The notes beneath the pieces were generated by a model. The model saw only the letters and a program-made list of their open reading frames with translations, was not told the origin of the DNA and searched no databases. A stretch of DNA of 33,608 nucleotides from Bacteriovorax sp. BSW11_IV (GTDB taxonomy: Bacteria; Bdellovibrionota; Bacteriovoracia; Bacteriovoracales; Bacteriovoracaceae), in contig NZ_AUNE01000054.1 in the NCBI RefSeq assembly GCF_000447755.1, positions 1 to 33,608 of the forward strand. Reading direction: 5' to 3'. Shown here piece after piece: positions 15,267 to 26,345 of this stretch. The position numbers and the translations under genes were made by a program. How positions within the stretch are numbered: the stretch's first letter is position 1; the number at the start of each line of letters is the position of its first letter.

Positions 15267-17318
15267 ATGGCAGTAAAAGTTAAGCCTACCAAGAAGTACA
15301 CGTTAAAAAATACGGACAAAAAACTTCTTAAGAAATGGTATGAGATTTTAACTCTAGGACGCATGATTGATGATCGTGCCCCTAACTATCTAAAGCAAGC
15401 AATCGGTTGGTCATACCACGCACCATGTGCTGGTCACGATGCGATTCAACTTGCTATTGGTCAGACTTTCAACAAAGAAACTGATCACCTTTTTCCATAT
15501 TACAGAGATATGATTACTGCTCTTTCTGCAGGCCTTACTGCTGAAGAGTTGATTCTAAATGGTATTTCAAAAGGAACTGACCTTGCTTCAGGTGGACGTC
15601 ACATGTCTAACCACTTTGCAAAACCAGAGTGGAATATTCACAACGTTTCTTCTTGTACAGGAAACCACCCTCTACACGCAGTAGGTGTTGCTCGTGCAAT
15701 GGATCGTTATAAGCACCCAGGTATTGCAATCTCTTCTCAAGGTGAGTCTTCTGTATCAGAAGGTTACGTTTACGAAGCGATCAATGGTGCATCTAGAGAA
15801 AAACTTCCAGTTGTATTTGTATTCCAAGATAACGGTTACGGAATTTCTGTTCCTAAGTGTGACCAAACTGCCAATGAAATTTGTGCAGAAAACTTCATGG
15901 GATTTTTAAACTTAAATATCATCATCTGTGATGGTAAAGACGTTTTTGATTCAATGAACGCTATGGAAGAAGCTAAAAAGATTGCTCTTGAAAAAAGTGA
16001 GCCAGTAATCGTACACGCAATGTGTGTTCGTATCCACTCTCACTCAAACTCTGATAAGCACGAGCTTTATAGAGATGAGCAAGAAAGAGCTGAAGCAGCT
16101 GCTCAAGATCCATTAGTTGCTTTTAGAAATGAACTTGTTAAAGCAAAGCTTTTCACAGAAAAAGAACTTGATGCAATTGATGCTGCTAAAAAAGAAGAGC
16201 TACTAGCTGCTCACACATCTGCTATGCAAGCTCCAAACCCAACTCCTGAATCAATTTACGATTTCGTATACGCTCCAGCTCACGTGCCAACTAAGTACGT
16301 GGATGGAACTCACAACGAAAGTGGTGAAGAAGTGAAGTTCATTGATGCTATCAATGGAACTTTAAAAGCAGAATTTAGACACAACCCAAATACATTTATC
16401 TGGGGTCAAGATATGGCCAACAAAGATAAGGGTGGTATCTTCAACGTTTCAAAAGGTATGCAACAAGAATTCGGTAAAGAGCGTGTATTCAACGGTCCGA
16501 TCGCCGAAGACTTTATCCTTGGAACGGCAAACGGTTTCTCACGTTTTAGAAAAGATATTCGTGTTGTTGTTGAAGGTGCAGAATTTGCAGATTACTTCTG
16601 GCCAGCAATGGAGCAATACCTTGAGTGTTCACACGACTACTGGAGATCAAACGGAGCTTTCGCACCAAACGTGCTAATCCGTCTTGCTTCAGGTGGTTAT
16701 ATCGGTGGTGGTCTTTACCACTCACAAAACCTTGAAGGAAACCTTGCAGGTATTCCTGGTGTGAGAATTGTATGTCCTGCATTTGCTGACGATGCTGCTG
16801 GTCTTTTAAGAACGGCCATGAGAAGTGAAGGGCCAACTCTATACCTAGAGCCGAAAGCTCTTTATAACGCTAAACAAGCGGCAACTGTTGTTCCTGAAGA
16901 CTTTGAAGTTCCTTTTGGAAAAGCACGCGTAAGAAGAGAAGGTTCAGATCTAACTGTTGTGACTTATGGAAATACGGTTCACCACTGTCTAGAGGCCGCT
17001 GAGAAATTAGCTGCTGATGGATATAATATCGAAGTTATCGATCTTCGCTCTCTAATTCCTCTAGATGAAGAAACAATTCTTGCTTCAATCGCTAAAACAA
17101 ATAAGTGTCTAGTAGTACACGAAGATAAAGTTTTTGGTGGATTCGGTGGAGAGATTGTTGCTCTAATCAATGAGAAAGGATTTGAGCACCTAGACGCGCC
17201 AGTGAAGCGTGTTGGTTCGACATTTACTCCAGTTGGATTTAACAGAATCCTTGAAAGAGCTATTCTTCCAAACACTGATCGCGTTCTTGCGGCCATGAAA
17301 GAAACACTTAACTACTAA
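15267..17318 (+). CDS. Fused alpha-beta 2-oxoacid dehydrogenase E1 (branched-chain type)
   Basis: This 683-residue protein joins the E1 alpha and beta chains of a thiamine-diphosphate 2-oxoacid dehydrogenase, most like branched-chain or acetoin/pyruvate E1 enzymes. The alpha part (about 15-325) has the ThDP-binding region GE159-160...EG, ending at N189-G190 (GDG-x-N motif with Glu in place of the usual Asp). The beta part starts near 355 (FIDAINGTL) with FIWGQDMA, FNGPIAED and a transketolase C-terminal domain (VVHEDKVFGGFGGE). It decarboxylates a 2-oxo acid and passes the acyl group to an E2 lipoyl protein. No E2 or E3 gene is in this window. GAGGAAAG precedes the ATG. GGCC is rare in this gene, suggesting high expression. 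Confidence 0.92.
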   Translation: MAVKVKPTKKYTLKNTDKKLLKKWYEILTLGRMIDDRAPNYLKQAIGWSYHAPCAGHDAIQLAIGQTFNKETDHLFPYYRDMITALSAGLTAEELILNGISKGTDLASGGRHMSNHFAKPEWNIHNVSSCTGNHPLHAVGVARAMDRYKHPGIAISSQGESSVSEGYVYEAINGASREKLPVVFVFQDNGYGISVPKCDQTANEICAENFMGFLNLNIIICDGKDVFDSMNAMEEAKKIALEKSEPVIVHAMCVRIHSHSNSDKHELYRDEQERAEAAAQDPLVAFRNELVKAKLFTEKELDAIDAAKKEELLAAHTSAMQAPNPTPESIYDFVYAPAHVPTKYVDGTHNESGEEVKFIDAINGTLKAEFRHNPNTFIWGQDMANKDKGGIFNVSKGMQQEFGKERVFNGPIAEDFILGTANGFSRFRKDIRVVVEGAEFADYFWPAMEQYLECSHDYWRSNGAFAPNVLIRLASGGYIGGGLYHSQNLEGNLAGIPGVRIVCPAFADDAAGLLRTAMRSEGPTLYLEPKALYNAKQAATVVPEDFEVPFGKARVRREGSDLTVVTYGNTVHHCLEAAEKLAADGYNIEVIDLRSLIPLDEETILASIAKTNKCLVVHEDKVFGGFGGEIVALINEKGFEHLDAPVKRVGSTFTPVGFNRILERAILPNTDRVLAAMKETLNY

Positions 17319-17525: not shown

Positions 17526-19115
17526 ATGAGAGGAATAAGCTTAAACACAAAAATTTTGGCCCTGACTCTAGGTCCATTTCTATTGTTCAACGCCATTATG
17601 TTGGCGGCCTCATACAAAACGACTAAAGAGGCCTTAATGCAAGAAAAGCGTTTTGTTCTTCAAGATGTTATTTCCACTGCTGAAGATGTTTTGCAATATT
17701 ATGCAGATCAAGTTCAAGAAGGAAAAATCACTGAGGCCGAGGCCAAAGAGCATGCGAAAAATTATATTGTTCGTCTTCGTTATGGTCGCGAACACGATGA
17801 TTATATTTGGGCACAAGACTTTGAACCTAATATGATTATTCACCCTACAAGTTCAAAGTTAAATGGTACTTCTTTGAAAGAATTCAAAGACAAGGCCGGT
17901 AAAAAGTTTTTCGTTGATATGGCGGTTATCGCAAAGAAAGATGGTGAGGGATACGTTGATTATATTTGGTCAGATAAAAAAGATCCGACTAAAAGTGCCC
18001 CAAAACTTTCTTATGTTAAATCATTTAAACCATGGGGCTGGGTGCTTGGGACTGGGATTTATATCAATGATGTAAATGATTATATTTCAGCTCTTATGAT
18101 GAAATATATTGCTTTTAGTGCGTTTGGTATTCTTGCAATTTCGTTTCTTATAAGCTTTGTTATTAAAAGGGGAGTTTCAAGGCCACTTCTCGAAATCGCT
18201 GACAACTTAAGGACTTCTGCTCAAAATGTTACCAAAGGTTCTGATACGACTTTTGATACTTCAAAAGTTTTATCAGAGGCCACTTCTCATCAAGCGTCTT
18301 CACTGCAAGAAACAGTTGCTTCAATTGATGAAATATCGGCGATGATTAATCGCAACAGCGACTCGGCCCAAAATTCTAGAGAAACATCTGTACGCAGTCA
18401 AAGTGCTGCCGAAGATGGAAAAAGAACTGTCGATGAAATGCTTGATGCCATCCATGACATTTCAAATTCAAATTCAAAAGTTATGGATCGTATGACTCAT
18501 TCAAATACACAAATCGGAGAGATTCTTGATGTCATTAAAGAGATCAACACTAAAACCAGTGTTATTAATGACATCGTTTTCCAAACAAAACTTTTGTCTT
18601 TTAACGCTTCTGTCGAGGCGGCACGAGCTGGGGAGAGTGGAAAAGGTTTCGCCGTAGTTGCCGAGGAAGTTGGAAATCTTGCTACTATGAGTGGTAAGGC
18701 CAGTGAAGAAATTAGAAGTCTTATTGAAACGAGTATTAAAAAAGTTGAAGGCATCGTTTCTGAAACCACAAGTATGGTTGATGTTCTTATTAAAGAAGGT
18801 AAGGAAAAAGTTGAGGGCGGAACTAGTAAGGCCCGTGAGTGTAAAGATGCTCTCGATGCTATTTTAGGCAATGTTGTAGAAGTGAATAGTAAGGTTACCG
18901 AAATCGCCGAGGCCTGTCGCGAACAGTCTTTGGGAGTAGATGAAATTACACGGGCTATGAGACTTTTAGATTCAGTGACTCATCAAAATAATCAAGCGGC
19001 CTCAAGTGCGTCGGCCTCTGCTGAGTCTCTTAAGAAAGAGGCCGAAAAACTTGATCAGGTTGTGTTCGAAGTTATCGGCCTTGTAAATGGTCAAAAAGAA
19101 AAAATCGCTATTTAG
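17526..19115 (+). CDS. Methyl-accepting chemotaxis protein with single Cache domain
   Basis: The 529-residue chemoreceptor has TM1 at about 9-28, a periplasmic single Cache (sCache_2-type) domain at about 35-188 (YIWAQD, MIIHP, GYVDYIWSD, PWGWVLGTGIYI), TM2 at about 194-214 and a cytoplasmic signalling domain. The hairpin tip that contacts CheA and CheW is QTKLLSFNASVEAARAGESG (353-372), followed by GKGFAVVAEEVGNLA. Between TM2 and the signalling helices I see only the start of a HAMP domain (SRPLLEIADNLR), so HAMP is short or degenerate. sCache_2 domains often sense small organic acids; the ligand is unknown. There is no C-terminal CheR-tethering pentapeptide. The end overlaps the convergent cyclase gene by 8 bases. 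The gene is dense in GGCC. Confidence 0.95.
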   Translation: MRGISLNTKILALTLGPFLLFNAIMLAASYKTTKEALMQEKRFVLQDVISTAEDVLQYYADQVQEGKITEAEAKEHAKNYIVRLRYGREHDDYIWAQDFEPNMIIHPTSSKLNGTSLKEFKDKAGKKFFVDMAVIAKKDGEGYVDYIWSDKKDPTKSAPKLSYVKSFKPWGWVLGTGIYINDVNDYISALMMKYIAFSAFGILAISFLISFVIKRGVSRPLLEIADNLRTSAQNVTKGSDTTFDTSKVLSEATSHQASSLQETVASIDEISAMINRNSDSAQNSRETSVRSQSAAEDGKRTVDEMLDAIHDISNSNSKVMDRMTHSNTQIGEILDVIKEINTKTSVINDIVFQTKLLSFNASVEAARAGESGKGFAVVAEEVGNLATMSGKASEEIRSLIETSIKKVEGIVSETTSMVDVLIKEGKEKVEGGTSKARECKDALDAILGNVVEVNSKVTEIAEACREQSLGVDEITRAMRLLDSVTHQNNQAASSASASAESLKKEAEKLDQVVFEVIGLVNGQKEKIAI

Positions 19116-21348
19116 AAGTTAGAGTATACACTCCATCCCAATCTGGAATAGGGGGATTCACTTTATATTCTTTACAGCGCTCCAAATAGATTTCAGAGGG
19201 GTTTGTCTTAACCCCTTTGAGTTCTGGAAATCTTTGATATTCAAGTTCAAGTGTTTTTGTAAAAAGCTCTATGGCCATATCCCATTCTTGCTTCTTGTAA
19301 TACTCGATTCCCGCTTTAAAGAATTTTGAAAGTTCATGCAAATAGGGTTCACCAGTTGTTTTAAGACCAAGAAGCTCAAATGTTGTTACAGGTACTGATT
19401 TACCCACAACGCGAATTGTATCGAGTTCTCGCCATAAGAAGTCATCACCAGCAAGTTCCACCGTTTCTTTTGATACTTGAGTGAAAATTCCATACTGCTT
19501 GGCCGATTCTTCTAAACGTGCGGCCAGGTTTACAGAGTCTCCCATCATGGTATAGTTCATACGTGAAGTTGAACCCATATTTCCCGTCACGATTTCACCA
19601 GAGTTGATACCAATTCTCATTCTCATATCGTGAACGATTTGAGGCCATTTCTCGCCCTCTGAGAGCCATTTTTTTCTAAGCTCTAAAAGAGTTTCCTGCA
19701 TTCTGTGAGCAACCATACATGCTCTTGCTGCGTGATCAGGCAGTGGCATAGGCGCCCCAAAAAATGCGATAATGGCATCACCCTCGTATTTATCCAGAGT
19801 CCCGTTTTCTTCTAGAAGAATGTCTGTCATGGCCGTGAGGTATTCATTAAGAAGTTCAACTAATCCTGTGGCAGAAAGTTTTTCTGAAAAAGTCGAGAAA
19901 CCTTGGATATCCGTAAAAAATGCTGTTCTTACTCCTGAGTCACCACCAAGCTTTGGAGGCTCTCCGTTTTTATACATCTCATCAATAAGCTCTGGCGAAA
20001 TATAGTTTCCAAAAGCACTTTTTAAAAAGGCCTTGTCTTTATTGGCCAAATAGAAGTGTAGGAAAGTATTCCATGAATAAGTGGCCATAACACTAAAGAG
20101 GCAAAAGAATAATTTAATCTCATAACCTTCGGGTGTTAGAAAGTAAGTATCAAAAAGATAAAGGCCTGCACTTAGTAAAATAACTCCCGCAAGATCAAGA
20201 ATCGGATTGCCAAAAAATTGAATTAGAAGAATAAGAACTGTTCCAATAATCAGAAGCGACCAAGAATAAAGTGTTGATTCAGAGTGTGGCTTAAAAAATC
20301 TTCCGTCTAAGAGCATATTGGTAAAATTCATGTGAAAATATACCCCAGGAAGAATGGGATCAATGGGAGTATGTCGAAGATCGTATGCCCCAAAGGCACT
20401 TGCCCCAACAAAAACGGCCGTGCCATCAAAGATGCTTTTCATTTTTTCGTCATTATCTCCTGCCGAGATGATGTCGTAGATAGGAACTCTTGGAAATTGA
20501 TTTGGTCCACCAAACCATCTCACTTTAGATTCCCCTTTATAATTGACTTGCATACGACCCTTAGTCGTTACAAGTTCACTTTTTTCAAGTCCTAAAAGTT
20601 CAAGTGTCGTTGAATCACCTGTTAAATGCTGATAAGTCGAAAGGGCGTATGAAGGTAAGTAGATTGTATCGATATTTCCAACCAGACGATAATGTCTCAT
20701 AATTCCATCTGAGTCAGCGACAACTTGAATGTGACCAAGGGCCGCATCTGAATCGAGAAGTTTTGGAATAGGGTAAACTGATTTTGAAACTTTACTCTCA
20801 ATGAGATTCAGACCTTCTCTTTGTTTCGCGTCCATTACGTAATTGTACAGATGCTCAGGCATTTCTTCATAGAAGTCTTCGTCGGCCTGATAAAGAGTTA
20901 CAAGTGAATAGGGAAGAATGACTTTATTTCCTGGCTTCTCTTGAAAATTCACAATGGAATCGAAAAATTCTCCATCTGGATCATCTGTTCCACAAACTTT
21001 CGTTTCTTCACCAAAGAAAACGTCAAATGCAATAACTTTAGCACCAAAAGTATTGAGCTTGCTAACAAGGTGAGACCAAGTATGACGTGTCACGGGCCAC
21101 TGGCCAAGTTTTTTTAGGGAATAATCGTCGATATCGGCCATCACAAGTCGTTTATCAACTCTTGTCATGTCAAGGGACTGCCTCATTCTAAAGTCGTAAA
21201 AACGATCTTCAAAAAATGAAGTATAGTAGAACATCTTTTTTAGATCGGCCCTATCAATCTCCCTTTCCGCAATGGCGAAAAAGACACTGATCGCTGAAAA
21301 GGAGATAATCAGCACTAGTCCAAAGTACTTAACGATTTTTGAAAACAT
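19108..21348 (-). CDS. CHASE2-domain adenylate cyclase (class III)
   Basis: The 746-residue protein has TM1 at about 8-28, an extracytoplasmic CHASE2 sensor at about 40-345 (VMADIDDYSLKKLGQWP, AFDVFFGE, FVGASAFG), three further membrane segments (about 360-378, 386-404, 412-430) and a class III cyclase domain at about 472-660. Metal-binding D480 (FTDIQGF) and D524 (YEGD) are present, as are the transition-state residues N607 and R611. The adenine-specifying pair is K520 and T600, the Lys/Thr arrangement known from cyanobacterial CyaB1, so I expect cAMP as product. The tail (about 665-746) is helical and TPR-like. The gene starts 11 bases after the TPR-barrel gene, in one operon with it and FecR, with AGGGA upstream of the ATG. 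No cAMP receptor gene is seen in the window. Confidence 0.95.
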   Translation of the reverse strand: MFSKIVKYFGLVLIISFSAISVFFAIAEREIDRADLKKMFYYTSFFEDRFYDFRMRQSLDMTRVDKRLVMADIDDYSLKKLGQWPVTRHTWSHLVSKLNTFGAKVIAFDVFFGEETKVCGTDDPDGEFFDSIVNFQEKPGNKVILPYSLVTLYQADEDFYEEMPEHLYNYVMDAKQREGLNLIESKVSKSVYPIPKLLDSDAALGHIQVVADSDGIMRHYRLVGNIDTIYLPSYALSTYQHLTGDSTTLELLGLEKSELVTTKGRMQVNYKGESKVRWFGGPNQFPRVPIYDIISAGDNDEKMKSIFDGTAVFVGASAFGAYDLRHTPIDPILPGVYFHMNFTNMLLDGRFFKPHSESTLYSWSLLIIGTVLILLIQFFGNPILDLAGVILLSAGLYLFDTYFLTPEGYEIKLFFCLFSVMATYSWNTFLHFYLANKDKAFLKSAFGNYISPELIDEMYKNGEPPKLGGDSGVRTAFFTDIQGFSTFSEKLSATGLVELLNEYLTAMTDILLEENGTLDKYEGDAIIAFFGAPMPLPDHAARACMVAHRMQETLLELRKKWLSEGEKWPQIVHDMRMRIGINSGEIVTGNMGSTSRMNYTMMGDSVNLAARLEESAKQYGIFTQVSKETVELAGDDFLWRELDTIRVVGKSVPVTTFELLGLKTTGEPYLHELSKFFKAGIEYYKKQEWDMAIELFTKTLELEYQRFPELKGVKTNPSEIYLERCKEYKVNPPIPDWDGVYTLTSK

Positions 21349-21359
21349 GGTTTTATTCC

Positions 21360-22937
21360 CTAAAAGTCGTAATTGATTTCAGTTGCAGTTACGTGCTTAG
21401 TATATTCTTGAGTAGATTCTAAAGAAGTATTCTTAGTGTAGTTGTAACTGAAATCGATGCTTAATGAATCTGTTATATTACGAGTGAGTTTAAAGTAGGG
21501 ATTCCATGTCTTCTCTGTTCCTCTTGCTTCGCTCTTTGCCTCATTTTCATACGTCGTCATTGTAAGAGAGAGGGCCAAGTTTAAAGTCGTTTTGAACATG
21601 AAATTTGGACGGATATAGTCTACACGAAATAAATTTGTCGTTGTCGATGACTCTTCATTATTGAAGTAGTCATTCATATCCATTTGCCATAAACCAATAA
21701 GAAGACTTCCACTATTTAGTATGGCCACTTGATCGAACGAAACAACTTTGGAATCGTAGTGATTTGTTTCTGAATATGAGTTAAATGACTTGATTTTAAA
21801 TTTTAAAGTAGATTCACCAAAATTGAAAAACTTTAATCTTTCACCAAAAACAAAAGTCGTCGTGCGGTTATTAAAAATTAGATTATGATCTGCATTTATG
21901 TCACGTTTTTTATAATCATATTCTATGTCGAAAATAAATGAAGCTGGTGCATTGAACATTTTATGTTCAAATTTTGTTCTTAGCTTTGAGCCAATTTGAT
22001 AGTAATCATTTGTATAAACGCTAGATGTGTCTTGGTTTTGATGTCTAAGATAATCATAAGTAATTACGGGTTCAATTTGATATCTTCTTTTAAAAACCAT
22101 TTTATAACTTGCGTATAAACTCGTATTAAAAAGAAAACTGTCTTCTTGTGATGAAGAAACGTCTGGCGTATCTGAAGATAAAGTGATGTTGTTATCGTAC
22201 TCCATGCTCTGTGAGAAGCTTAGGCGATAGCGCTTACTTGGAATTGTGCGACCATTGACCATCAGATTTGGGTCTAGTCCAAATTCCTTTTGAACTTCTT
22301 TCAAACGACGAATGGCATCTTGGCCAACAGATGATTTCTCATCCATTTTAATTGTTAGTTTATATTGTGGGATAATATAGCTCTCAACAATACGACTCGC
22401 ATCTTCTTTTGCTCTGGCCATTTCAAGCATGACTTCTGCAAGTTGAAAACGAGAGGCCTGGGCCAAATCATTTGATGTTTCTTTGTCATTTAAGACTTGT
22501 TCATAGAAGCTTTTAGCGCGTTTGTGCTCTTCTAAAATTTGTGAGATGTGAGCGATATAGTACAATGAAGTAGGGCGCTTATAATTGCCTTTTGCCGCTT
22601 TATAAAATGCTTTTCTCGATTTATCTAAATCGTTCTTAGCATAAAGTGCCTGTCCTAATTCGTAGTAGAGGTCTTCTGATTTATTTCCCGCTTTAAGCGC
22701 CATGGCCAGATAATATGCGGCCTTATCAAACTCTTGAAGTCTTGCATAACTAACACCGAAGAGATAGTACTTCAAACCAAGAGTTTCTTTAGAGTCTTTG
22801 ATTTGTTTTAACCCTTCTATTACTTCGACATAGGCCCCTTCAGTGAATGAACTATAGATATTCGTGAATTCTTTTGGCGTCTGTGCAAAGGCCGCACCAG
22901 TAAGTAAAATGGCAGTAAGAAGAGTCGGAAACTTCAT
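21360..22937 (-). CDS. TPR plus outer-membrane beta-barrel protein
   Basis: The 525-residue product has a signal peptide (cleavage near residue 19, AFA-Q), TPR-like helices at about 55-84, 88-117 and 124-150 with more helices to about 215, then a region of about 290 residues rich in alternating hydrophobic, aromatic and polar strands (about 236-525) ending in EINYDF, a terminal Phe typical of outer-membrane barrels. The layout (periplasmic TPRs followed by a barrel) is like SLAM/DUF560 proteins that move lipoproteins to the surface, but I cannot show homology. Next to FecR and a CHASE2 cyclase it may be the outer-membrane arm of a signalling or export system. AAGGAAAG precedes the ATG. Confidence 0.8.
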   Translation of the reverse strand: MKFPTLLTAILLTGAAFAQTPKEFTNIYSSFTEGAYVEVIEGLKQIKDSKETLGLKYYLFGVSYARLQEFDKAAYYLAMALKAGNKSEDLYYELGQALYAKNDLDKSRKAFYKAAKGNYKRPTSLYYIAHISQILEEHKRAKSFYEQVLNDKETSNDLAQASRFQLAEVMLEMARAKEDASRIVESYIIPQYKLTIKMDEKSSVGQDAIRRLKEVQKEFGLDPNLMVNGRTIPSKRYRLSFSQSMEYDNNITLSSDTPDVSSSQEDSFLFNTSLYASYKMVFKRRYQIEPVITYDYLRHQNQDTSSVYTNDYYQIGSKLRTKFEHKMFNAPASFIFDIEYDYKKRDINADHNLIFNNRTTTFVFGERLKFFNFGESTLKFKIKSFNSYSETNHYDSKVVSFDQVAILNSGSLLIGLWQMDMNDYFNNEESSTTTNLFRVDYIRPNFMFKTTLNLALSLTMTTYENEAKSEARGTEKTWNPYFKLTRNITDSLSIDFSYNYTKNTSLESTQEYTKHVTATEINYDF

Positions 22938-22960
22938 TTTCTTTCCTTGAAAATAAAGAG

Positions 22961-22979
22961 GGCCCTCTTCGTGAGGGCC
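22961..22979 (-). terminator. Hairpin between fecR-like and TPR-barrel genes
   Basis: A perfect GGCCCTC/GAGGGCC stem with a 5-base loop in the 84-base gap. On the minus strand it is followed by CTCTTTATTTT, a mediocre T-run. It may partly terminate transcription after the FecR gene and so set a step-down in expression, or act as an mRNA-stability element. Confidence 0.5.
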
Positions 22980-23021
22980 AACTAAAATAACATATTGAGT
23001 TTATTATAAAATGAAATTCTT

Positions 23022-24404
23022 TTATTGAGAACGAATGATCACTTTTACCCGTGAAGTTCTTGACTGTTGAACAGTGTTATTTGTTTGTTCAATTAACTTA
23101 TCACGATCCTCAACTAAAACATCTGAGTTAAATTCTGGTGGCGGAGCTAGTGGTCTAGTTCCGTCAACTAACTCTGGGCCTTCTAATGGAATAGGCTCCA
23201 TTGGTTTCGTTTCATTGATATTCATTACTGGAGGCTTCGGTGGGGCCTTAGGGTCAGTGCTCGCAGGAAGTCTAGAGTTCGTGTTAAGAACCATATTACC
23301 ATTGGCCATAAGCTTATAAGTTGTATTCACATACTGGCCAGTTCTGGCATTAAATGTTCCCATCTCTTTTGGTGGCACATATGTTTTTGTCACAGCATCG
23401 AAGGCCGAACCAGCTGGTGGTGGAATATACTGAGCAGTCTTTAGATCCACAAAGCCACCTGATGGCGGAGCAAAGGCCCCTGTTTCTTTATCTTTAAAAC
23501 CTTCTGGTGGGGCGAATTTAATGTCTTTTGGACCTTTAATGGCCATTGCCTTTTTCATATTGTCTGCACCCACAGCTCCAGCAACTTGCTTGGCCACAGC
23601 AGAAGTATCATTAGCAAATTCCTTGCTGTTTACGCCTGGAGGAATAGGGCTTTTAAATGTTTTAGTGGCCGAAGTTGTTTCGCTTGTGGCCGCTGGAGTT
23701 TCTGCTCCGGTCTCATTTTTCTTAAGTACATCAAACTGTGCAGGGTTAATTTTAATAGGCTCGTTAGGTCTATTAGATCTTGCTGGCGCAACACCTGAGA
23801 ATTGACCTTGCTTTACCATTACCGCATTTGGACCTGAAACAATGGACTCTAAATTCTTTTGAGAAAATGAGCGTGCCTTTTCAATGGCATCAATTTGTCC
23901 CATGGCAACAGCTCCCTCGAATGTAATTAGAGTTGTGTTGTCATTTTCCGGAGAGTAGTTAACTTGGAAATCTGTACCACGAACACCCATGGCGGCAGTT
24001 TTTGTTTTGATGAAAAGCTTTGAGCGATCTTTATCATCCATCTTCATATAGTCTTTCGTAACTTTTGAACGAAGCTGACCTTTCATCAGAGTAATGATCC
24101 CAGCATCTTTTTGTGGAAAAGCACTGATTTCCATTTGTGAGTTTGGACCCAAGTTCATTTGCGACTTATCAATGAGTAAGAATTTAACAAAACTCTTATC
24201 TTGAGTTTGAACAACTGCACCTTCTGGAAGCCAATCGTTCTTATTAATTTTAGTCATCTTGCCATCAATTTTAGCGCTGACATCCCCGCGGACAATAATG
24301 GCCTTGGCCACGCCGTTTTCACTTGCCACAACAATGTCGGTGGCAAAGAGATAGAGCGATGTAAAGCTCAGCAATAAAAAACTAAATGTCGTTAAAAATC
24401 TCAT
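23022..24404 (-). CDS. FecR-domain periplasmic protein with Pro-rich repeats
   Basis: The 460-residue protein has a signal peptide (about 1-21), a FecR domain at about 36-175 with its typical block TKTAAMGVRGTDFQV (134-148), and a long Pro-rich tail. Residues 297-358 hold four imperfect copies of about 15-16 residues with consensus xPPxxGxFDxxTGxY. The tail ends in a basic stretch. FecR domains in gene pairs with sigma factors relay outer-membrane signals; here no sigma factor is nearby, so a periplasmic scaffold or sensor role with the TPR-barrel and CHASE2 cyclase is more likely (inference). It heads the operon. GAGGGATTT precedes the ATG and a TATAAT lies about 45 bases upstream. Confidence 0.9.
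   Translation of the reverse strand: MRFLTTFSFLLLSFTSLYLFATDIVVASENGVAKAIIVRGDVSAKIDGKMTKINKNDWLPEGAVVQTQDKSFVKFLLIDKSQMNLGPNSQMEISAFPQKDAGIITLMKGQLRSKVTKDYMKMDDKDRSKLFIKTKTAAMGVRGTDFQVNYSPENDNTTLITFEGAVAMGQIDAIEKARSFSQKNLESIVSGPNAVMVKQGQFSGVAPARSNRPNEPIKINPAQFDVLKKNETGAETPAATSETTSATKTFKSPIPPGVNSKEFANDTSAVAKQVAGAVGADNMKKAMAIKGPKDIKFAPPEGFKDKETGAFAPPSGGFVDLKTAQYIPPPAGSAFDAVTKTYVPPKEMGTFNARTGQYVNTTYKLMANGNMVLNTNSRLPASTDPKAPPKPPVMNINETKPMEPIPLEGPELVDGTRPLAPPPEFNSDVLVEDRDKLIEQTNNTVQQSRTSRVKVIIRSQ
23331..23516 (-). repeat. Tandem protein repeat (xPPxxGxFDxxTGxY) in the FecR-domain gene
   Basis: Four degenerate units of 15-16 residues can be aligned: KFAPPEGFKDKETGAF, APPSGGFVDLKTAQY, IPPPAGSAFDAVTKTY and VPPKEMGTFNARTGQY. 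The conserved positions are the Pro pair, Gly, Phe, Asp/Asn, Thr and a final aromatic residue. At the DNA level the units have diverged, so the repeat is old or selected at the protein level. Confidence 0.75.
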
Positions 24405-24448
24405 AAATCCCTCATGGAGTGTGGGGTTTTCTTTTAGTGTTTATCGAC

Positions 24449-24454
24449 ATTATA
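24449..24454 (-). promoter_or_regulatory. Candidate -10 box (TATAAT) for the FecR/cyclase operon
   Basis: A perfect TATAAT on the minus strand, 44 bases before the fecR-like ATG. I see no good -35 at standard spacing, so an activator may be needed or the match may be chance. The surrounding 175-base gap (24405-24579) shows no gene and no terminator for arsC. Confidence 0.4.
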
Positions 24455-24579
24455 GAAGGCTTCTTTACAAGAAAAACTAAGTTACTGAAAATTCGTATTA
24501 AATATGAAGATCTATTGGCAAATGTGGCTTTAAAAGTAGTCAAAGGGCCCAAATATTAAGATTGAACCCTACGAAATTA

Positions 24580-24944: not shown

Positions 24945-25613
24945 TTAGAAAATAACGAGACCCATATTCACCATCCAAGTAATCGTTTTGATTCCCTGAC
25001 GGCTTTCTTCTTCACTAAGAATTTGAATCTCTTTTGAATTGGAAATATCAACAAGTGATACTTTTCTCGATTTATAGTAACTGAAAAGAAGCTGAATAAA
25101 AACCGGTCTCAATTCTTTTTCTTCGACTTGTTCTTCGACACCAATTGAAGCGACAATTCCACGGGCATCGTAAGAGAGTTTTGTATTTGAAAAAGATGTA
25201 TTATTTGAGGTGAAATTATCGAGGTTAATACTATGAAGAACCCAAGATGGACCGATGGAACCAAACAGCGCCCAGTTTTTATAGATGTTAAAATCTAGGG
25301 TGTATTTGAGAGTTGGAGTGAAATCCACTGTTCTAATTTTTCCTGTTCCTTGAATCATATTTTTATGGACTTCAAAGCGAATATTTTCAACTTTTCCCAC
25401 ATAGGCATTTGAGCTTAGGAGAAATTCCAAGTTTTCTAACTTGTAGCCAAAGCTCGATGAAAGGCCATAACCACCAAAGTCATCGTTCGATTCTAAGCTT
25501 GTTCCCATTGTTGTCTTGGCCGCAAGGATACCGCCTCTTAGAACAAGTTGATTGGAGAATCCGAATGAATTAAGTGATGCTAAAAATAAAAGAAGAATTG
25601 AGATATATTTCAA
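24945..25613 (-). CDS. Outer-membrane beta-barrel-like protein (TTG start)
   Basis: The 222-residue product has a signal peptide (residues 1-19, ending FGF-S) and a series of amphipathic strands with Gly and aromatic residues (for example YGLSSSFGYKLENLEFLLSS), ending VNMGLVIF with a terminal Phe. This suggests a small outer-membrane barrel of eight to ten strands; no named family is recognised. The start is TTG at 25613, whose last bases overlap the TGA stop of the upstream DUF3943-like gene (TTGA), so translation is probably coupled. It sits in a three-gene unit with that gene and arsC. Confidence 0.72.
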   Translation of the reverse strand: MKYISILLLFLASLNSFGFSNQLVLRGGILAAKTTMGTSLESNDDFGGYGLSSSFGYKLENLEFLLSSNAYVGKVENIRFEVHKNMIQGTGKIRTVDFTPTLKYTLDFNIYKNWALFGSIGPSWVLHSINLDNFTSNNTSFSNTKLSYDARGIVASIGVEEQVEEKELRPVFIQLLFSYYKSRKVSLVDISNSKEIQILSEEESRQGIKTITWMVNMGLVIF

Positions 25614-26311
25614 AACGACACCGATACGTTTAACATCGCCTTTTTCTTATCTACATAAGGTAAAAGTCGAACACGCCCTTCGTAATACCAAAATAAAGTA
25701 TGGGGATTGATTGCATGACCCAAGAACCTTCCCATAAAGTTACCCGTATTCAAAAGATACATACTAAGTTTTTCTATCCCAAGACCAAGTACGGCCCCTA
25801 GTACCGGAGTTGTATAAAGGTCTTGTATACTTGCAGGCTCAGTATAGTTCTCTACAGTAAACTCAAAGAGGGTAGAAGAAATAAAGGACATCGCAAGAGA
25901 ATTGATATTGTTGTAACCGTTAGCACGATAGTAAAGATATAATTGCGAGCCAGAAATGGGATGAACGACCCAATTCCAAAAGGGCTCATCTTTATCAAAG
26001 ACAACCTTTCCAAAATTTCTTCTATAATTGGAAAATGAGCCTTTCTTAAAAGTCTTTGGTTGCGTTAGAGGATAGACAATCCAAGAGGCCACATAAATAC
26101 CACCAATATGGCGCATATTTTCTTTTAGTTCATGGTCTCTTTCTCTGTATCCGTAGAAGTAGCTTTTTTCACGTACTGATTTAGACAGTAATTCTTCATT
26201 CTTTGTTGTTACTTGGACAGGGGCTTCTGGTTGTGAAGCGTGACTTATTGAAGCGTCAAAAAAGGCGAAGATCATTAAAAAACTAATGAATATCTTTTTT
26301 ATATCATTCAT
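25610..26311 (-). CDS. DUF3943-like exported protein
   Basis: I take the ATG at 26311 (233 residues); a TTG at 26323 is also in frame and neither has a strong ribosome site. The protein begins with a signal peptide (about 5-25). From about residue 105 it reads like DUF3943: WNWVVHPISGSQLYLYYRANGY, a membrane-like SSTLFEFTVENYTEPASIQDLYTTPVLGAVLG, then a C-terminal region ending in VSVSF. DUF3943 proteins are envelope-associated and of unknown function. It heads an operon with a barrel-like protein and arsC and is divergent from hemF, with 62 bases between the two starts. Confidence 0.65.
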   Translation of the reverse strand: MNDIKKIFISFLMIFAFFDASISHASQPEAPVQVTTKNEELLSKSVREKSYFYGYRERDHELKENMRHIGGIYVASWIVYPLTQPKTFKKGSFSNYRRNFGKVVFDKDEPFWNWVVHPISGSQLYLYYRANGYNNINSLAMSFISSTLFEFTVENYTEPASIQDLYTTPVLGAVLGLGIEKLSMYLLNTGNFMGRFLGHAINPHTLFWYYEGRVRLLPYVDKKKAMLNVSVSF

Positions 26312-26314
26312 GAG

Positions 26315-26345
26315 TTCACACAATAGGAATAGTCCGTTATATAAT
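26315..26345 (+). promoter_or_regulatory. Candidate promoter for hemF
   Basis: TATAAT at 26340-26345 lies 28 bases before the hemF ATG. The best upstream hexamer, TTCACA (26315-26320), is 19 bases away, longer than ideal. It overlaps the start region of the divergent DUF3943-like gene, so the two promoters may interfere. Confidence 0.4.

Follow-up and report, generated by a model that had tools for sequence, protein, structure and literature searches.

A FecR, TPR-barrel and CHASE2 adenylate cyclase gene trio in Bacteriovorax sp. BSW11_IV as a probable split form of the NsrA-CyaK envelope-spanning cAMP sensor

Introduction

The CHASE2 adenylate cyclase CyaK of Sinorhizobium meliloti requires an outer-membrane barrel protein, NsrA, in which the barrel occupies residues 600-1200, and the genetics of the pair show that cyclic AMP (cAMP) output requires signal perception at the outer membrane (PMC7529298; PMC13001267). 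CyaK corresponds to SMb20776, encoded on pSymB (PMC5498481), and the signal of this system is proteinaceous. Here we compare NsrA-CyaK and related systems with a locus in a 33,608-nucleotide stretch of the Bacteriovorax sp. BSW11_IV genome (contig NZ_AUNE01000054.1, positions 1 to 33,608; hereafter the window), which encodes a FecR-domain protein, a protein combining tetratricopeptide repeats with an outer-membrane barrel (TPR-barrel) and a CHASE2 adenylate cyclase. The genome (3.65 Mb, 59 contigs) belongs to a family of Bdellovibrionota, the Bacteriovoracaceae (f1), and was compared with a second family of this phylum (f6), which is probably the Bdellovibrionaceae.

Clusters of CHASE2 cyclase, phosphodiesterase, FecR and TPR genes were reported in Campylobacterota in 2022 and proposed to form a single pathway, with the NsrA model cited (PMC9239204). 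By their description, these clusters resemble the window in combining a CHASE2 cyclase with FecR (described as an outer-membrane protein) and a TPR protein, but they include a cAMP phosphodiesterase, which is absent from the window cluster. In magnetotactic bacteria, mtxA, which encodes a secreted TPR protein, directly precedes a CHASE2 cyclase gene, as the TPR-barrel gene does in the window, but FecR is not reported in that study and there is no barrel (PMC4439547). The BiofilmReg operon of Burkholderia likewise contains FecR (with LysM) beside a CHASE2 sensor protein, but lacks a TPR-barrel and has a histidine kinase and response regulator, rather than cAMP, as its output (PMC5192318). FecIRA also places a FecR domain beside an outer-membrane protein, whereas the window trio has neither an adjoining sigma factor nor a TonB-dependent receptor, its output is a cyclase and its FecR protein is secreted. 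The kind of system is already known, given the reports of the Campylobacterota clusters, the Burkholderia FecR-CHASE2 kinases and the magnetotactic TPR-CHASE2 cyclase. We did not find in the literature a description of the split Bdellovibrionota form as a version of NsrA-CyaK or of its spread over further phyla, nor of the conserved C-terminal strand of FecR, the internal promoter-like element before the barrel gene and the FliA-like promoter before FecR.

Comparison of the window trio with NsrA-CyaK and with loci in other phyla

The window trio probably constitutes an envelope-spanning cAMP sensor, with an NsrA-CyaK-type system split over three genes. As in NsrA-CyaK (and CyaD1/D2), a FecR domain, periplasmic TPRs, an outer-membrane barrel and a CHASE2 class III cyclase are encoded in adjoining genes; in the window, the CHASE2 cyclase is catalytically complete, the TPR-barrel gene adjoins it and FecR is a separate protein. 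On pSymB, a 1,219-amino acid open reading frame (ORF) comprises a FecR domain (residues 85-179; e-value: 2.3e-15), TPRs (approximately residues 250-606) and a C-terminal region whose last residues are KVRF; its final base is also the first base of the ORF for a 649-amino acid CHASE2 cyclase. In its size, the reported barrel region and the adjoining CHASE2 cyclase on pSymB, the fused protein fits NsrA. The window proteins align with their pSymB counterparts at 26% identity over 112 amino acids for FecR (e-value: 1e-6) and 26% over 626 amino acids for the cyclase (e-value: 1e-51), and a match between the TPR-barrel profile and the pSymB fused protein was not found. NsrA-CyaK differs in uniting FecR, TPRs and a larger barrel in one 1,219-amino acid protein, whereas the window trio divides these over two proteins, with a 14-strand barrel that is apparently unrelated and a FecR that carries a Pro-rich linker and a C-terminal strand.

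Separate genes are also found on plasmids of other genera. The Paracoccus plasmid pAMI5 shows the order TPR-barrel, FecR and CHASE2 cyclase, with a collagen-like linker in FecR, and on a Methylosinus plasmid the CHASE2 cyclase gene is convergent with FecR. The window trio is therefore best read as a split NsrA-CyaK-type system, from the comparison with the pSymB fusion and from the Paracoccus and Methylosinus arrangements. By analogy, the window system would share with NsrA-CyaK an outer-membrane receptor upstream of cAMP (PMC7529298). The earlier note had proposed a flow from the barrel via FecR to the CHASE2 cyclase and cAMP, and this proposal gains support, by analogy, from the pSymB fusion, the NsrA/CyaK genetics (PMC7529298; PMC13001267), and the synteny and co-loss described below; we infer on this basis the contacts between FecR, barrel and CHASE2 and the direction of the signal in the window system.

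When named genomes were scanned with the cyclase alignment, 80 loci were obtained, of which 76 with a recognised cyclase were examined for FecR. Near CHASE2 cyclases in other phyla, 27 FecR genes were observed: 21 lie upstream of the cyclase at a distance of one or two genes, and there are none at distances of three, five or six. The order FecR, protein X and cyclase occurs in nine loci (Neomarinimicrobiota, Calditrichota, Ignavibacteria, Bacteroidetes and others). The X proteins are 800-995 amino acids in length, lack a Pfam match in the eight of the nine loci scanned, and end in Phe in 8/9 cases, compared with 5.8% of other proteins. Outer-membrane barrels often end in Phe, and the sequences suggest that X is such a barrel. 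On the Sphingobium plasmid pTomTYG71a (L227), a cyclase-like gene is located between a CHAT-domain gene and genes annotated as encoding a heme:hemopexin-binding protein and a very large protein, the latter two resembling a two-partner secretion pair.

Linkage and co-occurrence in Bdellovibrionota

FecR is located directly upstream of the TPR-barrel gene in 31/34 cases in the Bacteriovoracaceae, the exceptions being L026, L045 (contig end) and L062. The cyclase gene lies directly downstream of the TPR-barrel gene in 13/34, is convergent in one (L034) and is found elsewhere in the rest. In f6, all eight loci that were read show FecR followed by the TPR-barrel gene, convergent with the cyclase. 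The synteny check across genomes suggested in the earlier note thus supports the linkage of FecR and TPR-barrel in both families, with the cyclase adjoining in part only. Around loci of the window type, the usual order is hemF, followed by DUF3943, an outer-membrane protein gene, (ArsC), FecR, TPR-barrel and cyclase, while in other genomes the cyclase directly follows hemF. The linked type forms groups that largely agree between the cyclase and TPR-barrel trees, and several gains or losses are needed to account for the linked order. A second set in the window genome (contig C50, L012 6052-11705) consists of a CHASE2 cyclase gene followed by FecR and then by a convergent gene for a LysM protein with a barrel-like end. 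Because the f1, f6 and C50 arrangements differ, the partners recur in differing orders.

In f6, CHASE2 and FecR are kept or lost together: strong matches to both were found in 32 of the 51 genomes, to neither in 17 and to one only in two (one of each), with a p-value of ~2e-11 that is nominal, as it ignores shared ancestry. Among 37 f1 genomes, cyclase and TPR-barrel are both present in 27, both absent in six and mixed in four (3/1), at an equally nominal p ~2e-4. On these sequence comparisons the grouping of the three genes is not due to chance, because of the conserved linkage in f1 and f6, the co-loss of CHASE2 and FecR, and the FecR-CHASE2 linkage in other phyla. The genes might nevertheless have gathered at the hemF locus without functional coupling, and hemF, DUF3943, ArsC and a chemoreceptor gene are indeed also found there, with a make-up that varies between genomes. 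However, the same partners are kept in differing orders in f1, f6, the paralogous locus and other phyla, they co-occur, and they are fused in S. meliloti. We consider mere neighbourhood to be highly improbable, and largely refuted by these independent linkages.

At the paralogous cyclase locus (L012), too, a chemoreceptor gene is found close by, preceded by a FliA-like motif. The third CHASE2 protein of the window genome (C49, L018 5957-7834) is a histidine kinase, followed by a response-regulator-like gene, with no adjoining FecR. FecR/TPR-barrel pairs located away from the cyclase (L049 5098-7161, L051 8893-10464, L054, L062, L063) often lie beside genes for large lipoproteins, some of which contain many Cys repeats of the form C...W....C.

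Features of the encoded proteins

The domains described in the earlier note for the three minus-strand genes were confirmed by Pfam and AlphaFold, and their coordinates by the ORFs (Table 1). By Pfam, the TPRs of the TPR-barrel protein are weak (e-value: 8e-5) and its barrel is without a reliable family match. The AlphaFold model, obtained with a 34-member alignment, has a mean predicted local distance difference test score (pLDDT) of 91.9 and contains paired helices and 14 strands. Structure comparison matches the helical part to TPR proteins and the barrel to the 14-strand porins CymA (Z 22) and OmpG (Z 21), while the top Foldseek match of the model is BcsC, also a TPR-barrel protein. A plug domain is absent from the barrel model, and no TonB-receptor Pfam match was obtained.

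The Slam (type XI secretion) proteins (DUF560; PMC8406197) share the layout of this model, namely N-terminal periplasmic TPRs and a 14-strand barrel. FecR and the TPR-barrel protein could accordingly be a Slam-kind secretion or surface-display pair which exports FecR or a lipoprotein, with the cyclase as a neighbour that has a separate task. Several pairs away from the cyclase adjoin large lipoproteins, the cyclase gene moves independently in many genomes, and the FecR of the Paracoccus pAMI5 trio (L223 3844-5811) matches, below threshold, the domain TbpB_B_D/FHBP_C that forms the barrel of type XI secretion cargo. However, PF04575 (Slam, DUF560) is matched by 0/34 TPR-barrel family members, including the window protein, and a secretion pair would leave unexplained the co-loss of CHASE2 and FecR in f6, the adjacency of FecR and CHASE2 over many phyla and the pSymB fusion beside a CHASE2 cyclase; export could, moreover, itself belong to a sensor. 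No TbpB_B_D-like cargo domain was found among the window neighbours scanned by Pfam, the sub-threshold match being confined to the Paracoccus trio. A role in secretion alone is therefore an unlikely alternative to the split sensor.

The window FecR protein (Pfam FecR match, e-value: 1.6e-14) consists of a signal peptide, a conserved FecR domain, a Pro-rich linker and a conserved C-terminal strand. It is secreted and, the signal peptide aside, has no predicted inner-membrane anchor. The Pro-rich repeats pointed out in the earlier note are located here, in a linker that varies greatly in length and whose repeats follow the pattern APPxGGFxDxxTGxYIPPPPGSxFD. As a strict regular expression for the tail motif proved loose, the tail was scored by alternating hydrophobic residues: at least three occur in the last 14 residues of 29/39 TPR-barrel-paired FecR proteins, against backgrounds of 24% in other proteins and 19% in shuffled tails. 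Four unpaired FecR proteins also score on this measure, three of which have a C-terminal barrel-like end of their own. Unpaired FecR proteins ending in an apparent barrel are encoded at L013 5838-7712, L016 5268-6992, L093 17288-19201 and L094 8813-10999, where the fused barrel may replace the separate TPR-barrel partner. A search of the FecR profile against PDB sequences found no useful relative. From its sequence, we infer that the FecR tail docks on the TPR-barrel protein and that the linker lets the FecR domain reach CHASE2. As the earlier note had remarked, no sigma factor accompanies FecR: the ORF list and Pfam scan revealed no sigma-factor gene among its neighbours, those of the extracytoplasmic function (ECF) type included, and sigma-factor coupling was rejected for this reason.

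The cyclase comprises an N-terminal transmembrane segment, a periplasmic CHASE2 domain (e-value: 3.5e-40), transmembrane helices, a class III cyclase domain (Guanylate_cyc; e-value: 4.5e-22) and a C-terminal tail. All catalytic residues are present (metal-binding Asp D480 and D524, K520, T600, N607 and R611) and, where reported by the alignment, are invariant over 15 relatives, T600 included. The model resembles solved cyclases such as CyaB (Z 26.7), with the PDB structure-match lists filled by cyclase-domain matches. In S. meliloti, CyaD1 without CHASE2 makes cAMP constitutively (PMC5498481), and CHASE2 therefore appears to inhibit the cyclase; by analogy, it would have the same inhibitory role in the window cyclase. 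The window genome encodes ten cyclic nucleotide (cNMP)-binding proteins, which, by their sequences, could read cAMP.

Gene layout, promoters and neighbouring genes

The FecR and TPR-barrel genes are separated by 84 bases and the TPR-barrel and cyclase genes by the 11 bases given in the earlier note. Its view of the three genes as one operon was upheld only in part: a -10-like box is conserved in the FecR/TPR-barrel gap, which in the window also contains a terminator-like hairpin. Such hairpins were found in this gap in the window, L029 and L042, and TATAAT occurs in 12 of the 21 gaps of at least 30 bases (2.3 expected). In f6, this gap measures 0-24 bases. The TPR-barrel and cyclase genes may be transcribed on their own, as suggested by the TATAAT enrichment and the hairpins, and a single mRNA for all three genes is doubtful because of the internal promoter-like element.

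Table 1. Features of the FecR, TPR-barrel and CHASE2 cyclase locus (positions in the window)
Feature	Position	Strand	Basis
FecR-domain secreted protein, 460 amino acids	23022..24404	-	ORF 24404->23022; Pfam; alignment
FecR domain	23907-24215	-	Pfam match
Extreme C-terminal amphipathic strand of FecR, RTSRVKVIIRSQ	23025..23060	-	FecR alignment; family consensus TxVxFxIxxQ
TPR + 14-strand outer-membrane barrel protein, 525 amino acids	21360..22937	-	ORF 22937->21360; structure model
TPR domain (paired helices), residues 22-218	22284-22874	-	AlphaFold model
Barrel (14 strands), residues 237-524	21366-22229	-	AlphaFold model
CHASE2 adenylate cyclase, 746 amino acids	19108..21348	-	ORF 21348->19108; Pfam
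CHASE2 domain	20233-21213	-	Pfam
Class III cyclase domain	19378-19926	-	Pfam
FliA (sigma-28)-like promoter motif before the FecR gene, TAAAG-N16-CGATA	24442..24467	-	motif match
Internal promoter-like element TTCTCA-17-TATAAT before TPR-barrel gene	23003..23031	-	motif match
Terminator-like or attenuator-like hairpin between FecR and TPR-barrel gene	22961..22979	-	sequence

The sequence before the window FecR gene, TAAAGAAGCCTTCTATAATGTCGATA, contains the FliA-like motif. The pattern T[AC]AAG-N16/17-CGA[TA] precedes FecR in 9/12 loci of the window class (0.05 expected) and none of the other FecR or cyclase classes, and the same FliA-like motif precedes flagellin genes and a motA-like gene in the window genome. 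A TATAAT within the spacer of the motif means that a sigma-70 reading is also possible. A cAMP-CRP site before FecR was rejected, as TGTGAN6TCACA matches in the window are near chance level, with none before FecR.

The ends of the cyclase gene and of a chemoreceptor gene (sCache_2, MCPsignal; 17526-19115, plus strand) overlap by 8 bases. The DUF3943 gene and a gene for a 222-amino acid outer-membrane-like protein (24945-26323, minus strand) are conserved in many relatives, where they lie between hemF and either FecR or the cyclase gene. A 683-amino acid ORF (15267-17318, plus strand) appears to be a fusion of pyruvate dehydrogenase E1 alpha and beta.

Discussion

Several observations weigh against the trio as a split NsrA-CyaK-type sensor. 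In approximately half of f1 the cyclase is no longer located at the FecR/TPR-barrel pair, some 20 pairs lie apart from it, and in many relatives the cyclase has no adjoining pair. The co-occurrence p-values, furthermore, carry the limit given above. According to the model and alignment, the barrel is closed off by short outer loops with fairly high conservation, unlike those of a receptor for a variable ligand. Because of these loops and the clustering of the conserved residues D248, N250, D311, R472, G473, E475, S505, Y512 and K514 at the outer end, the model suggests a closed or conserved binding end rather than a variable receptor. Finally, the separate FecR gene that adjoins cyaD1 in S. 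meliloti, smc02177, is a target activated by cAMP-Clr, and signal perception does not depend on it (PMC5498481), so that a FecR located next to a CHASE2 cyclase is not always a coupler.

The behaviour of smc02177 is in keeping with a reversed flow, in which the cyclase controls the expression or activity of FecR and the TPR-barrel protein, both being outputs of the cAMP pathway. NsrA, which the pSymB fused protein fits by its reported barrel region, acts upstream of CyaK, however (PMC7529298), while in the window CRP-type sites are not enriched and the conserved element before FecR is FliA-like, making this direction improbable.

In the split sensor that we favour, the TPR-barrel protein would reside in the outer membrane with its TPRs facing the periplasm. 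FecR would be tethered to the barrel via its C-terminal strand on the flexible Pro-rich linker, allowing the FecR domain to reach the CHASE2 domain of the inner-membrane cyclase. Without a signal, CHASE2 would hold the cyclase low, while a change at the outer membrane (ligand, mechanical or assembly state) would be relayed via FecR to CHASE2, and the resulting rise in cAMP would act on CRP-type proteins. A rather doubtful variant is that FecR is threaded through or displayed by a Slam-like TPR-barrel. A single polypeptide would then span the outer membrane, with its tip at the surface joined by a flexible linker to a FecR domain in the periplasm that sets CHASE2. The unit would be made together with flagellar (FliA) genes, and cAMP would in that case report outer-membrane contact during the motile phase.

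How CHASE2 cyclases receive their signals is a long-open question, with both Pfam and published papers giving CHASE2 as a sensor without a known input. The existence of split, convergent and fused versions of the trio across several phyla suggests that CHASE2 often takes its input from a partner in the outer membrane via FecR, and not from a free periplasmic ligand, and offers testable pairs in laboratory-tractable relatives. For the Bdellovibrionota, some members of which hunt bacteria, it places cAMP signalling beside outer-membrane sensing and possibly the flagellar programme.

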